Positions 2-8,796 of a DNA stretch of 21,796 nt are shown piece after piece. This DNA comes from a virus. The notes under the pieces are model-generated. The model saw only the letters and a program-made list of their open reading frames with translations, made no database searches and was not told where the DNA came from. The DNA lies in IMG/VR virus record IMGVR_UViG_3300025732_000304, positions 1 to 21,796 of that record. One strand, written 5' to 3'. Position 1 is the stretch's first letter; each line of letters starts with the position of its first letter. Made by a program: the position numbers and the translations under genes.

Positions 2-1996
2 ACAACACCTGATCAGGCTCCTGTAGCAAAAACTCCTGAATCACCTAAACCAACAACACCTACAACAGCAGTCGCTAAACCAGTAGAACAAAAACCTGCT
101 GTTCAAACAGAGATGAGTTGGTTCGACAAGATGAAAGCAGGAGTAAAGTCAGCATTAGGATTGCAATATGGTGCAGGCTTATCAGGTATTCCTAAAGAAC
201 CACCTAAGCCAGAGGCTAAATTAACATCTGCTGAAGCCGCAGAAAAAGCAAACCCATTAGGACTACGTTCTAACGCTATGGCATTTGGTCAAGAAAAAGA
301 TGTAGCACCAACTGGACCTAAAGAACAACCTTCAATGATACCGGGCATGATTGCTGCCACAGCGGCATCGCCTGAGGCAAGATTAGCAGAAGTTCAAAAA
401 GGTGCTGAAGAAAGAATAGCAAAAATCATGACGCCGGACAAGGGTATGGCTGACATGATGAAACAGTTTGGTATACAAAGTAAGAGTTTGCAAGATCAAA
501 TGAAACTTACACGTACTGGTACAGGAGATGAGAAGGCTAAGACTAGTCAAGAAATATTTGACGATATGCAAAAGAACATCTTCAAGTCTAGTACATCAAT
601 AGAAGATTTAGGAAAAACTCAATTAGAAACTGGAAAAACAACAACAGATAGTTTGAGACAGTTCCAACAGATGTTGGATATATCTAATAAGTCACTGGCT
701 AACTTAGCCATTAACTTTACTAAATTTGATAGTTTAATTAAGGGCACACTAGATGAAGTAAGCCCTGAGGATGCTACTAAAGAAGTTAAAGATCAAATTA
801 AGGGTGTATTAGGTGGCGCATTATTAGATATTGGTAAAATAAGAAATCAACTTAAAGACGTACAAGGTGCGGCAACAACTCCTCCACCTGGTGCAGTAAC
901 ATCGGGTACAGGTGGTGCAGTAACAGATAGCAGTGGTAAGCCAATTATGAGTAGCATGCCACCAAGCATGCCTTCTGCACCTCCACCAATGAAGCAAGAT
1001 GTAAAAGAAAATCTTGCTGGTATTACTGATGCATTAAAGAAACGTGGTATCACTGATGACAATTACATTAAAGCCGTATTAGGTAATGTAATGAAAGAGT
1101 CAGGTGGTAAAGTTGTTGGTGAAAACTTAAATTACGGTAAAACAAGTAATGAGCGTATTCGCAGTATCTTTGGAGAACGTGCATCAAAATACACTGATGA
1201 ACAGTTAAGTGAGATTAAAAAAGATCCTCAGCAAATGGCTGAGATGATGTATGGTGGTGGAACTAAGATCGGTAAGGGCATGGGTAATACAGAGCCCGGT
1301 GATGGATGGAAGTTCAGAGGTCGTGGATACATACAGTTAACTGGCAAGAATAATTATTCTGCCGCAAGTAAAGCAATATTTGGTGATGACAGATTAGTTG
1401 AAAATCCTGACTTAGTAAATGACCCCGGCATTGCTGCCGAAGTTACTGCATGGTACATGCAAAAAGGTCAAACAAGCATGGCTAGTAAACTTGGCATTGA
1501 TGCTAAGGGTGGAATGTCAGCAGACCAAGCACAGTTATTAGCAACAAGTCAGATTGCAGGTACAGCAATTAAACCTGGACAAGGTTATTTAGGTGGCGAA
1601 GTACTACAAAAAGTAGCGATGTATTCATCACAGATGCCCGGCGATTCAAGGCAAGGTGGCGAACGTGTAATGCAGGCATCGGGAGGTCTTATCGCAGACG
1701 GTCCCGAAACAGGTTATCCTGTACAACATCATGGACTAGAAATTACTGCTCCATTAGATTCAGAATCTATATTGATGAAGTTAGCCAAAACACAAGCCGA
1801 ATCGGCTGAAGGTAAAAATGTAATGGCTGAAGTTTCGGGTTCAAAACAAGAAGCAGGTTCAGATTCTACTAGAGAAATGATTGCAGCCAATATGGAAATT
1901 TATAGTATGATGGCAAGTAAGTTGGATCAAGTCATTGCCCAATTGAGTGATGGTAATGAAACTTCAAACAAGTTATTGAAGCATTCATTAGTCTAA
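2..1996 (+). CDS. GH19-type lysozyme/chitinase domain virion protein (5' partial)
   Basis: This is probably a virion-associated peptidoglycan hydrolase. The frame is open to the left edge, and the first 37 codons are a Pro/Thr/Ala/Lys-rich linker. The first in-frame ATG (113) has no good ribosome binding site, so the true start is probably outside the window. Residues below are numbered from that ATG. Residues 80-240 are helical and charged; 270-300 form a Pro/Gly/Ser linker. A GH19-like domain spans about 300-500: the likely catalytic Glu329 in MKESGG, then ENLNY, then the signature FRGRGYIQLTGKNNY at 401-415. Near 522-545 the segment GGLIADGPETGYPVQHHG resembles a motif often seen near the ends of tape-measure-like phage proteins. 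The gene sits directly before the portal gene, where T4 has tail-tube gp19. A lysis endolysin is less likely because of the size, the linkers and the position among structural genes. Family is clear; the virion location is inferred. Confidence 0.82.
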   Translation, partial: TTPDQAPVAKTPESPKPTTPTTAVAKPVEQKPAVQTEMSWFDKMKAGVKSALGLQYGAGLSGIPKEPPKPEAKLTSAEAAEKANPLGLRSNAMAFGQEKDVAPTGPKEQPSMIPGMIAATAASPEARLAEVQKGAEERIAKIMTPDKGMADMMKQFGIQSKSLQDQMKLTRTGTGDEKAKTSQEIFDDMQKNIFKSSTSIEDLGKTQLETGKTTTDSLRQFQQMLDISNKSLANLAINFTKFDSLIKGTLDEVSPEDATKEVKDQIKGVLGGALLDIGKIRNQLKDVQGAATTPPPGAVTSGTGGAVTDSSGKPIMSSMPPSMPSAPPPMKQDVKENLAGITDALKKRGITDDNYIKAVLGNVMKESGGKVVGENLNYGKTSNERIRSIFGERASKYTDEQLSEIKKDPQQMAEMMYGGGTKIGKGMGNTEPGDGWKFRGRGYIQLTGKNNYSAASKAIFGDDRLVENPDLVNDPGIAAEVTAWYMQKGQTSMASKLGIDAKGGMSADQAQLLATSQIAGTAIKPGQGYLGGEVLQKVAMYSSQMPGDSRQGGERVMQASGGLIADGPETGYPVQHHGLEITAPLDSESILMKLAKTQAESAEGKNVMAEVSGSKQEAGSDSTREMIAANMEIYSMMASKLDQVIAQLSDGNETSNKLLKHSLV

Positions 1997-2028: not shown

Positions 2029-3822
2029 ATGACTTATAAAAGAAAATTCCTTAACAAAAGTGGTATATCAAGCCCTATAAGCGGTGGCAATAGCAACGCC
2101 GGAGCGTGGAACGGCAGTCCTGGACAAAACGGAATGCCCACTGGAGGTTGGAATAATACAGATTTTGGATATAAGAACTATATGAGTAGACTTCCTGAAG
2201 TCTACACAGGTCATCCAAATCGTATAGAACGTTATAATCAATATGAAATGATGGACGTTGATGCTGAAATCAACGCATGTTTAGATATCATTTCAGAATT
2301 CAGCACACAACGCAACGAACATAATAAGACACCGTTTAACTTTGAATTCAAAGAGGATCCAACTCCCCATGAAGTTGAATTATTACAAAAGCAATTACAG
2401 CAATGGTGTAAGTTAAATGAGTTTGATAATCGTATCTTTAAAATTTTTAGAAACGTTATCAAATATGGTGATCAGATATTCGTTCGTGACCCAGAAAACT
2501 TTAAGTTATATTGGGTCGATATGGTTAAAGTTATTAAAGTTATCGTCAACGAGAGTGAAGGTAAAAAGCCGGAACAGTATGTACTTAAAGACTTAAACAT
2601 TAATTTACAGAATCTATCAGTAGCACAAAAAACTAATACTGACTTTGCTGCCAACCCAGCAACAGGCTTAGGTGGTACTGGTGGCGGAACAAACACACCT
2701 TATACTGTTCCGGCTATGCCGTATAACACTAGTGGTAGTAGATTTACATTGGGTCAAAGTGAAAGTGCAATTGACGGTAAACATATACTACACTTAAGTC
2801 TAACAGAAGGTCTTGATAGATTTTGGCCTTTTGGACAAAGTGTGTTAGAAAACATATTTAAAGTTTATAAACAAAAAGAATTACTTGAAGATGCTGTTCT
2901 AATCTATCGTGTACAACGTGCTCCTGAACGTAGAATGTTTAAGATTGACGTTGGTAACATGCCAAGTCATATGGCTATGGCATTCGTAGAACGCATTAAG
3001 AACGAAATCCATCAGCGTAGAATCCCATCTGTTTACGGTGGGCAGTCTGTAGTAGACGCCACATATAATCCATTATCAATGAATGAAGATTACTTCTTCC
3101 CTGTTACAGCGGATGGACGAGGATCTTCTGTAGAGGTTCTACCTGGTGGACAGAATCTCGGTGAGATTGATGACTTGCGTTATTTCAATAACAGATTAGC
3201 ACGTGGATTACGTGTACCAAGTTCATACTTACCAACTGGCCCTGATGATAACACTACACCGTTAAGTGATGGTCGTGTTGGCACAGCAATGATACAAGAG
3301 TTCAGGTTCAATCAATATTGCGAACGCTTGCAAAGTTATATTTCAATGAAACTTGATGAAGAATTTAAGTTATTCTTGCGTTGGCGTGGATTCAACATTG
3401 ATAGTGGACTGTTTCAATTACAATTCAATCCTCCACAGAACTTTGCAGCCTATCGTCAAAGTGAATTAGATACTGCCCGAGTTAGCACATTTGCTAGTAT
3501 GGAAGCATTTCCATATATCAGTAAACGTTTTGCATTAGAAAGATTCTTAGGATTAACTGAAGAAGAAATTACTAAGAACGAGAAACTTTGGCGTGAAGAG
3601 AATCAGAAAGATATATCTGAAGAACCCAAAGGCAGTGATTTACGTGGTGTGGGTGTATCTACGAGCGATATTGAAAGTGATGAGCAAACTGCTGATGACC
3701 TTGAAACAGGTGAAGAAGAAGCAGAATTAGGTGGTGAGGATGTTGCAGGACCTGTTGCAGGTCCCGAAACTGGCGCCCCAGCAGCCGCAGTAGCACCCGG
3801 CGGAGCCGCTCCCCCAGCATAA
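2029..3822 (+). CDS. gp20: T4-type portal vertex protein
   Basis: Portal (head-tail connector) protein of the T4 gp20 family. It forms the dodecameric ring at one capsid vertex, nucleates prohead assembly and is the channel for DNA packaging. The strongest marker is RAPERRMFKIDVGNMP at residues 297-312, a highly conserved gp20 segment used for environmental surveys. Other family-like stretches are YFFPVTADGRGSSVEVLPGG and the RLARGLRVPSSYLP segment. The length of 597 residues exceeds T4 gp20 (524). The excess is partly an acidic, then Ala/Pro/Gly-rich C-terminal tail from about residue 530, and partly a Gly/Asn-rich N-terminus. It is followed by the other head genes in T4 order. No clear ribosome binding site precedes the ATG. 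Confidence 0.97.
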   Translation: MTYKRKFLNKSGISSPISGGNSNAGAWNGSPGQNGMPTGGWNNTDFGYKNYMSRLPEVYTGHPNRIERYNQYEMMDVDAEINACLDIISEFSTQRNEHNKTPFNFEFKEDPTPHEVELLQKQLQQWCKLNEFDNRIFKIFRNVIKYGDQIFVRDPENFKLYWVDMVKVIKVIVNESEGKKPEQYVLKDLNINLQNLSVAQKTNTDFAANPATGLGGTGGGTNTPYTVPAMPYNTSGSRFTLGQSESAIDGKHILHLSLTEGLDRFWPFGQSVLENIFKVYKQKELLEDAVLIYRVQRAPERRMFKIDVGNMPSHMAMAFVERIKNEIHQRRIPSVYGGQSVVDATYNPLSMNEDYFFPVTADGRGSSVEVLPGGQNLGEIDDLRYFNNRLARGLRVPSSYLPTGPDDNTTPLSDGRVGTAMIQEFRFNQYCERLQSYISMKLDEEFKLFLRWRGFNIDSGLFQLQFNPPQNFAAYRQSELDTARVSTFASMEAFPYISKRFALERFLGLTEEEITKNEKLWREENQKDISEEPKGSDLRGVGVSTSDIESDEQTADDLETGEEEAELGGEDVAGPVAGPETGAPAAAVAPGGAAPPA

Positions 3823-8094: not shown

Positions 8095-8796
8095 ATGATT
8101 GAAATCCTATACACCCTCATAGCAACACATATCACTATTATATGTGTAACATTATTCTTACATCGTGGTCAAGCCCATAGAGGAATACAATTTCACCCAG
8201 TACTAAGTCACTTCATGCGTTTTTGGTTATGGCTAACTACAGGCATGGTCACAAAAGAATGGGTTGCAATACATCGTAAGCATCATAGATTTAGTGACGA
8301 ATTCAATGATCCACATAGTCCTAAAGTGTTTGGGATATGGCGTGTATTATTTGGTGGCGCATTTCTTTATGCTAATGCAGCCAAAGATAAAGATATGGTA
8401 AATCAGTATGGTGTGGGGACACCTGACGATTGGATAGAACGTAATGTATATACAAAGCACCCATGGTTAGGAATTACTTTGTTATTGATTGTAAATTTAC
8501 TTTGTTTTTCACTTTGGGGATTATTGATTTGGGTTATACAAATGATATGGATACCCTTTTGGGCAGCCGGCGTTATCAATGGTGTTGGACATTATGTAGG
8601 TTATAGAAACGGTATTACTAAAGATAACAGTCGTAATATATCACCTTGGGGTATTATTATAGGTGGCGAAGAATTGCATAACAATCATCATTTAGATCCT
8701 GCTAGTGTTAAATTGAGTCGTAAAAAGTTTGAGTTTGATATTGGATATTTTTATTGTATGGTCTTTAGTAAATTAAAATTACTATCAATTAAATAA
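8095..8796 (+). CDS. Membrane fatty acid desaturase (delta-9/DesC-like)
   Basis: Integral membrane di-iron fatty acid desaturase, expected to insert a double bond in acyl chains using oxygen and an electron donor. All three histidine boxes are intact: HRGQAH at 23-28, HRKHH at 60-64 with the following DPHSP at 72-76, and HNNHH at 195-199. The extra NGVGHY at 162-167 also fits the acyl-CoA/acyl-lipid delta-9 group. Hydrophobic segments lie near residues 3-22, 40-52, 125-150 and 150-165. The length of 233 is short for the family (commonly 260-330), with little N-terminal extension. It appears complete and not decayed. It lies between capsid and fibre genes, so it is a candidate auxiliary metabolic gene expressed late. 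Its stop overlaps the stop of the opposing HNH-type gene. Regiospecificity and substrate cannot be read from sequence. Confidence 0.92.
   Translation: MIEILYTLIATHITIICVTLFLHRGQAHRGIQFHPVLSHFMRFWLWLTTGMVTKEWVAIHRKHHRFSDEFNDPHSPKVFGIWRVLFGGAFLYANAAKDKDMVNQYGVGTPDDWIERNVYTKHPWLGITLLLIVNLLCFSLWGLLIWVIQMIWIPFWAAGVINGVGHYVGYRNGITKDNSRNISPWGIIIGGEELHNNHHLDPASVKLSRKKFEFDIGYFYCMVFSKLKLLSIK

Follow-up and report, generated by a model that had tools for sequence, protein, structure and literature searches.

The open reading frame (ORF) at the left end of the window, that is, the whole linear IMG/VR record IMGVR_UViG_3300025732_000304 (21,796 bases), probably belongs to a T4-like, jumbo-type myovirus and encodes the C-terminal portion of its tape-measure protein (TMP), with a GH19 enzyme in it. 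The sequence shows the position of the gene, the N-terminal homology of its family to virion proteins of isolated phages, a GH19 fold with conserved residues, and the variety of modules found at the same place in relatives. For the window protein itself we infer a location in the virion, near the tail tip, a role as ruler, an enzymatic activity and an order of entry events. The frame is a single one, truncated at its 5′ side; as the record ends to the left of it, the start of the gene is absent from the window. The relevant features are the following:

2–1996, plus strand: C-terminal 664 aa of a probable tape-measure protein (complete relatives: L004, 1420 aa; L003, 1242 aa)
2–331, plus strand: Pro/Ala-rich linker, residues 1–110, 15% Pro (composition)
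329–871, plus strand: charged stretch, residues 110–290, probably helical (composition)
872–991, plus strand: Pro-rich linker ahead of the enzyme, residues 290–330, 24% Pro (composition)
992–1636, plus strand: GH19 endolysin-type domain, residues ~331–545 (Pfam/PHROG, PDB sequence matches, model and fold search)
1097–1099, plus strand: E366, presumed catalytic Glu (family and 4ok7 alignments)
1121–1123, plus strand: E374, presumed second catalytic Glu (family and 4ok7 alignments)
1340–1342, plus strand: T447 in RGRGYIQLTG, presumed active-site Thr (family and 4ok7 alignments)
1682–1741, plus strand: C-terminal motif GGLIADGPETGYPVQHHGLE, residues 561–580 (pattern survey of portal-adjacent ORFs)
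1742–1993, plus strand: C-terminal tail, last residues KLDQVIAQLSDGNETSNKLLKHSLV (alignments of portal-adjacent ORFs)
2029–3822, plus strand: portal protein gp20, anchor of the survey (PF07230, 1.6e-102)

A sequence-only reading of this DNA had already proposed a GH19 domain next to the portal gene, and both points were confirmed: the PF07230 gene directly follows, and Pfam, PHROG and PDB sequence and fold searches agreed on the domain. PF00182 (Glyco_hydro_19) matched residues 435–493 (E 1.1e-6, 29 bits for a cut-off of 25.5) and PHROG 181 ('endolysin') residues 327–489 (4.9e-36). Phage-type GH19 enzymes topped the PDB sequence search (8p8e 4.1e-16, 9ms6 1.7e-15, 4ok7 2.8e-13) and also came first in a PDB fold search with an AlphaFold2 model of residues 327–550 (pLDDT 88.0), with 7r6s and 8p8e as best matches and 4ok7 at rank 5. 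E366, E374 and T447, which we take to be the catalytic or active-site residues, are invariant in the nine GH19 family rows and align with the SPN1S endolysin (4ok7), E366 standing opposite a Glu. As judged from alignments and the model, this is a GH19 fold with its presumed active-site residues intact, for which a peptidoglycan-cleaving activity can be predicted. The SPN1S endolysin and KTN6 gp46 (8p8e) share the fold and these residues, but they are free enzymes of ~220 residues, whereas the window domain is fused to a structural-type protein.

Since the nearest relatives of the domain are GH19 endolysins, the gene might be taken for that of a free, holin-dependent endolysin acting in lysis at the end of infection. 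We reject this as highly improbable: rather than a small stand-alone enzyme, the domain is part of a 1242–1420 aa frame in the complete relatives, and the orthologues in isolates, which lack the enzyme, occur in virions. Moreover, a search of 50 whole records placed eight of 12 GH19 matches in the portal-adjacent gene and the remaining four, all on large contigs, in separate frames of 208–215 aa (that of G049 under the Pfam cut-off), the size that would be expected of true endolysins. Improbable as well is a TMP with a catalytically dead GH19 domain that would serve for wall binding or as bulk. Although GH19 activity is predicted only, and the hydrolase motif in the TMP of mycobacteriophage TM4 is dispensable for phage viability (PMC1796659), the invariance of the three residues speaks against a dead enzyme, and so does the occupation of the slot in relatives by unrelated wall enzymes, a pattern consistent with selection for cutting.

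Relatives of the window ORF are encoded at nine IMG/VR loci (L007–L009, whose match range is identical to that of L006, were left out). Recovery of the full gene, a check suggested by the sequence-only reading, was achieved in two of these relatives, L004 and L003, the window record holding the C-terminal part only; residues 65–664 of the window ORF are 80% identical to L004. In both relatives the gene order is gp26-type gene (minus strand), long gene, portal gp20. In these relatives the interval is not the one between gp19 and gp20 that had been supposed, the upstream neighbour, which lies outside the window, being a gp26-type gene on the opposite strand (PF12322, 5.2e-13 in L004; the L003 protein is similar by reading only). 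In T4, too, gene 26 points away from genes 51-27-28-29, which places the T4 tape-measure gene, 29, beyond the same kind of junction as the window family, although we found no sequence similarity between them. Radical-SAM-like genes occur upstream of the gp26-type gene (L003:369–1490, by similarity in reading; L004:387–1400, PHROG 21308). Elsewhere in the window, a fatty-acid desaturase-like gene (8095–8796, plus strand; PF00487, 9e-16) directly follows the gene for the major capsid protein; at this place in the L004 contig there is a 237-aa frame with a different beginning.

The best named relatives of the window portal belong to T4-like jumbo phages, including PA5oct, Phosso, Atu_ph07, XaC1 and CBB (48–54% identity). 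In these five isolates a gene of 709–845 aa occupies the same slot, and the minus-strand neighbour is annotated as 'baseplate hub subunit' in XaC1 only; in Vibrio 2.275 the arrangement is altered, with the PF12322 gene of that phage near by. We surveyed the ORF upstream of the portal in a set that is not exhaustive, as the best 80 of 586 portal matches were kept. Seven of the 80 portals (L036, L057, L063, L065, L073, L076 and L099) lie at a contig edge without an upstream ORF; the remainder, the window, L001–L006 and the five isolates make up 85 ORFs, many of them 5′-truncated (the ORFs taken from L066 and L082 stop more than 500 bases short of the portal).

The N-terminal region, which lies outside the window, connects this family to known virion components. 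A profile built from 29 close metagenomic members matched one built from 20 distant metagenomic members with an E value of 6.6e-53, and the profile of close members matched the isolate set (PA5oct, Phosso, Atu_ph07, XaC1, CBB and Vibrio 2.275) at 3.4e-18; reversed-alignment controls gave 0.0014 and 0.023. Two of the isolate proteins are virion proteins: CBB_251 stands in the CBB virion table with the values 29 and 50.14, taken here as peptides and % coverage (PMC5259590), and PA5oct EST35_0148 is marked ESI-MS/MS in its record. Together with Atu_ph07 gp197, they share the slot and the N-terminal domain with the family of the window gene; they measure, however, 722–845 aa and have no recognised enzyme, whereas the window gene has GH19. 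Their lengths fit the measured tails at ~0.15 nm per residue, a value taken from PMC1796659 (114 aa for ~17 nm), in the only three isolate orthologues compared. The 722 aa of CBB predict 108 nm for a tail of 123.0 nm, which includes a collar of 7.4 nm and a baseplate of 14.7 nm (PMC5259590); the 845 aa of Atu_ph07 predict 127 nm for a tail of 136 nm (PMC6102473); and the 798 aa of PA5oct predict 120 nm for ~136 nm (PMC6950013).

The TMP published for Atu_ph07 is a different gene, gp701 (PMC6102473). We rejected this candidate (L107:30510–31124): it encodes 205 aa with a Phage_lysozyme2 match (PF18013, 1e-22) and is too short for the tail, and its name 'tail length tape measure protein' is probably wrong.

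Structural modelling of the N-terminal part, also proposed from the sequence alone, was carried out on 520 aa of L004 and gave an all-helical model (pLDDT 76.7). Its fold search against BFVD retrieved an Atu_ph07 protein of 845 aa (E 1e-3), which is as long as gp197, and named tape measures only weakly (E 0.0088 and above); the PDB fold search gave no match (best E 0.5). Searched as one sequence, T4 gp29 matched T4 only among 22 records (none of the other 21), and hhalign of the same single sequence against the N-terminal profiles found no link (E 0.27–0.57). Tape measures diverge fast, and for this reason the absence of detectable gp29 homology is weak evidence. By comparison, the N-terminal profile matched 18 of the 22 records, of which 11 had supplied its rows and seven had not (G033, G049, G051, Atu_ph07, XaC1, Vibrio 2.275 and CBB); those missed were PA5oct, Phosso, T4 and the window, whose record lacks the N-terminus. 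G039 has two tandem copies, and XaC1 a second, marginal match in a 107-aa frame. The tape-measure family PHROG 794 matched L004 (5e-14) and L003 (3e-15) and, in all, four of the 22 records, always within the portal-adjacent gene. This is also weak evidence, because the matched stretch (L004 399–757) is Gly/Ala-rich, including a glycine-zipper region (PF13488, 675–715), and because the family matches four of 14 control genomes as well.

At the other end of the protein, residues 561–580 of the window ORF include GPETGYPVQHHG, and C-terminal motifs of this kind may be typical of tape measures. A pattern built on it matched 30 of the 85 portal-adjacent ORFs (best 80 of 586 portals plus the added loci), in 26 of them at 77–106 residues from the C-terminal end. 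The motif and the tail after it form a block that can still be aligned where the enzyme modules differ.

Adjacency to the portal could also suggest a head-internal or pilot protein that is ejected with the DNA and carries GH19, the true TMP being another gene. Several observations agree with this: PHROG 14121, which contains the CBB, XaC1 and Vibrio 2.275 homologues, is labelled 'head and packaging', gp29 homology is not detectable, and the T7 gp16 lytic transglycosylase is called a virion lysin in a review (PMC5380687). Nevertheless, the gp26-type neighbour, the fit of gene length to the tails of three isolates and the C-terminal motif argue against it, and the gp29, phrog_794 and N-terminal profile searches yielded no other TMP candidate. 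We consider it unlikely. The suggestion of the sequence-only reading that this is an internal protein ejected with the DNA is less probable than a TMP, although in other phages a TMP also exits before the DNA; its hint at a tape measure was right, as the gene very probably encodes one. The assignment provides a TMP candidate for T4-like jumbo phages, a group in which the name went, in Atu_ph07, to a 205-aa protein with a tail-lysozyme match.

The survey of the portal-upstream interval that had been called for revealed several enzyme classes. In the 48 close ORFs, Pfam recognised GH19 (9), VanY (8), Phage_lysozyme (4), Amidase_2 (3), Peptidase_M15_4 (3), SLT (1) and LysM (1); some proteins enter more than one count (L022 both GH19 and VanY), the window and its near relatives L001–L004 make up five of the nine GH19 rows, and two matches, one Phage_lysozyme and one M15_4, have no traced member. 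The 37 distant and isolate ORFs gave VanY (8), SLT (2), M15_3 (2), Phage_lysozyme2 (1), Phage_lysozyme (1) and M15_4 (1). Taking the union of searches, a wall-enzyme module was recognised in ~30 of the 48 close ORFs from the best 80 of 586 portals, with weak matches in L027 (own HMM), L040, L051 and L052 (under the Pfam cut-off) and L071 (PHROG only), and the combined Pfam, PHROG, HMM and BLAST searches recognised no enzyme in the other 18, fragments included. In the 50 whole records, all 14 matches to PF00959, PF02557 and PF01510 fell, by coordinates, inside the portal-adjacent gene (three of the eight VanY matches being under the cut-off). At least six enzyme classes occupy one slot among the best 80 of 586 portals. 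The 1651-aa portal-adjacent ORF L034:1504–6456 combines GH19 with two LysM-like repeats and an M15-like peptidase region, the repeats and the peptidase being read by eye (the Pfam count has one LysM member).

In other phages, the TMP leaves the tail tube before the DNA. In the mechanism that we propose, the N-terminal helical part would set the tail length inside the tube and the last ~105 residues would anchor the TMP near the baseplate hub, with the GH19 muramidase-type domain just ahead of this anchor. Upon sheath contraction the TMP would come first out of the tube, and its GH19 domain would then open the peptidoglycan locally, allowing the tube and the DNA to pass. The slot would take up one enzyme or another as a cassette, be it GH19, GH24, lambda-type lysozyme, SLT, VanY/M15 peptidase or amidase.

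Wall enzymes inside tape measures are already known. The TM4 TMP has a peptidoglycan-hydrolase motif, mt3, embedded in the tape measure as the window enzyme is, which aids infection of stationary-phase cells (PMC1796659); TM4 is, however, a siphovirus with another enzyme, whereas the window gene is T4-like and has GH19 in a slot with several enzyme classes in relatives. T5 pb2 is listed as muralytic, and appears as tape measure in a cited title (PMC5380687); it is similar as a muralytic tape measure acting on a Gram-negative host, a likeness by description only, but T5 is a siphovirus. An enterococcal TMP likewise encloses a lysin, a GH23 transglycosylase, and that survey is reported to have seen no other lysin in TMPs (PMC10194240), in contrast with the at least six enzyme classes of the slot described here. 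One database record already applies the name tape measure to a protein with GH19: the ~2268-aa protein of Klebsiella phage Miami is a 'tape measure protein' in MT701590 and a 'chitinase' in RefSeq. Like the window family, it is a very long protein, and its GH19 stretch is 38% identical over 149 residues; nevertheless, the gene neighbourhood differs and the GH19 part alone could be aligned. A 'moraphage' paper is reported to have identified no tape measure (PMC12619734), and a term search of a 2026 jumbo-phage review found no 'tape measure' in it (PMC13282480). PMC8776804 and PMC3314691 each contain both 'tape measure' and 'GH19', so the combination of GH19 with a tape measure may already have been published; among the matches listed in our literature search, no title or abstract start described this slot.

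T4 itself has its tail lysozyme in gp5, where it lyses the wall at entry as we propose here for an enzyme placed on the tape measure instead. In Atu_ph07, the gp5 homologue gp699 (PF04717; L107:27705–30299) has at ~502–654 a lambda-lysozyme-type domain (PDB 3d3d 5.2e-6, 1am7 5.5e-6), and a related domain occurs in eight of the 85 portal-adjacent ORFs, the best being those of L059 (46%, 7e-30) and L026 (48%, 1e-23). The same gp699 ends in a trypsin-like domain (PF13365, 6e-17). For CBB, a lysozyme is reported at the end of the gp5 homologue (PMC5259590), and both phages thus have lytic domains on or beside gp5. Among 17 gp5 homologues from the window clade, neither the GH19 HMM nor BLAST queries with the Atu_ph07 domain and with gp701 found a lytic domain, whole-record searches with PF00959, PF02557, PF00182 and PF01510 gave no match at these 17 places, and neither did all of Pfam reveal one in the five that were scanned with it (three of these in part). 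The 17 homologues keep a conserved, unnamed C-terminal region, which may have a lytic role; by reading, the region after the beta-helix is conserved in L103:7736–10873 and other gp5 homologues ('P.QL...G.LKPG...TG..G'). In Synechococcus phage BUCT-ZZ01, GH19 lies in a gene annotated as gp5. As the lambda-type module is found in the Atu_ph07 gp5 homologue, whereas the 17 homologues of the clade showed no recognisable lytic domain, it seems that the wall enzyme was transferred from the spike to the tape measure and that it is exchanged as a cassette. The idea of a solution to wall penetration different from that of T4 gp5 is therefore supported, with the enzyme in a very probable TMP. An enzyme for entry may thus be a module that changes place between spike and tape measure and is open to exchange, a point of interest for host range and for finding new lysins.

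As to the rate of exchange, we give about even chances to a model in which the TMP is a docking rail, with the enzyme swapped between phages and between TMP and gp5 far faster than the portal changes, while the N-terminal domain and the ~105-residue anchor are kept; if so, fast cassette exchange would let phages track the chemistry of host walls. The portals of L041 and L042 are 96% identical, yet the TMPs of the two (1413 and 950 aa) align over 156 N-terminal (26%) and 64 C-terminal (33%) columns only. L037, a fragment, and L038 (portals 91% identical) have GH24 and amidase, respectively, and only their last 124 columns align (65%). L006, which is 5′-truncated, shares with L004 a portal at 56% and GH19 at 64% over 230 columns, nothing else being aligned. 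By contrast, L022 and L004 (portals 89%) align nearly end to end, with 38% over 1274 columns, and this alignment, together with the labels shared among many tree neighbours, speaks against fast swapping.

On a 44-row portal tree, the enzyme labels require 20 changes, with a least possible number of eight and a shuffled mean of 26.4 (as low in 0 of 200 shuffles). Lying between the minimum and the shuffled mean, this number indicates that the labels are partly inherited and partly exchanged. GH19 was clustered (0 of 500 shuffles as low) and amidase less so (10 of 500), without clustering for VanY (122 of 500) or for GH24, lambda-type ('GH104') and M15 (500 of 500 each). We assigned the labels ourselves, with L040, L051 and L052 as VanY under the cut-off; the tree left out L043, L045, L050 and L071, and L006, on a very long branch, was placed without certainty. 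L053 was labelled 'none', though it is M15 peptidase-like on reading. This locus has two tandem tape-measure-like genes before one portal (L053:1790–4216 and L053:4223–6982; 809 and 920 aa), 24% identical over 349 residues, the second of which seems, by eye, to carry the M15-type peptidase. Finally, at the end of contig G001 (L104:1–15042), the region of baseplate genes has a single open frame that exceeds 5,000 aa and runs off the contig.
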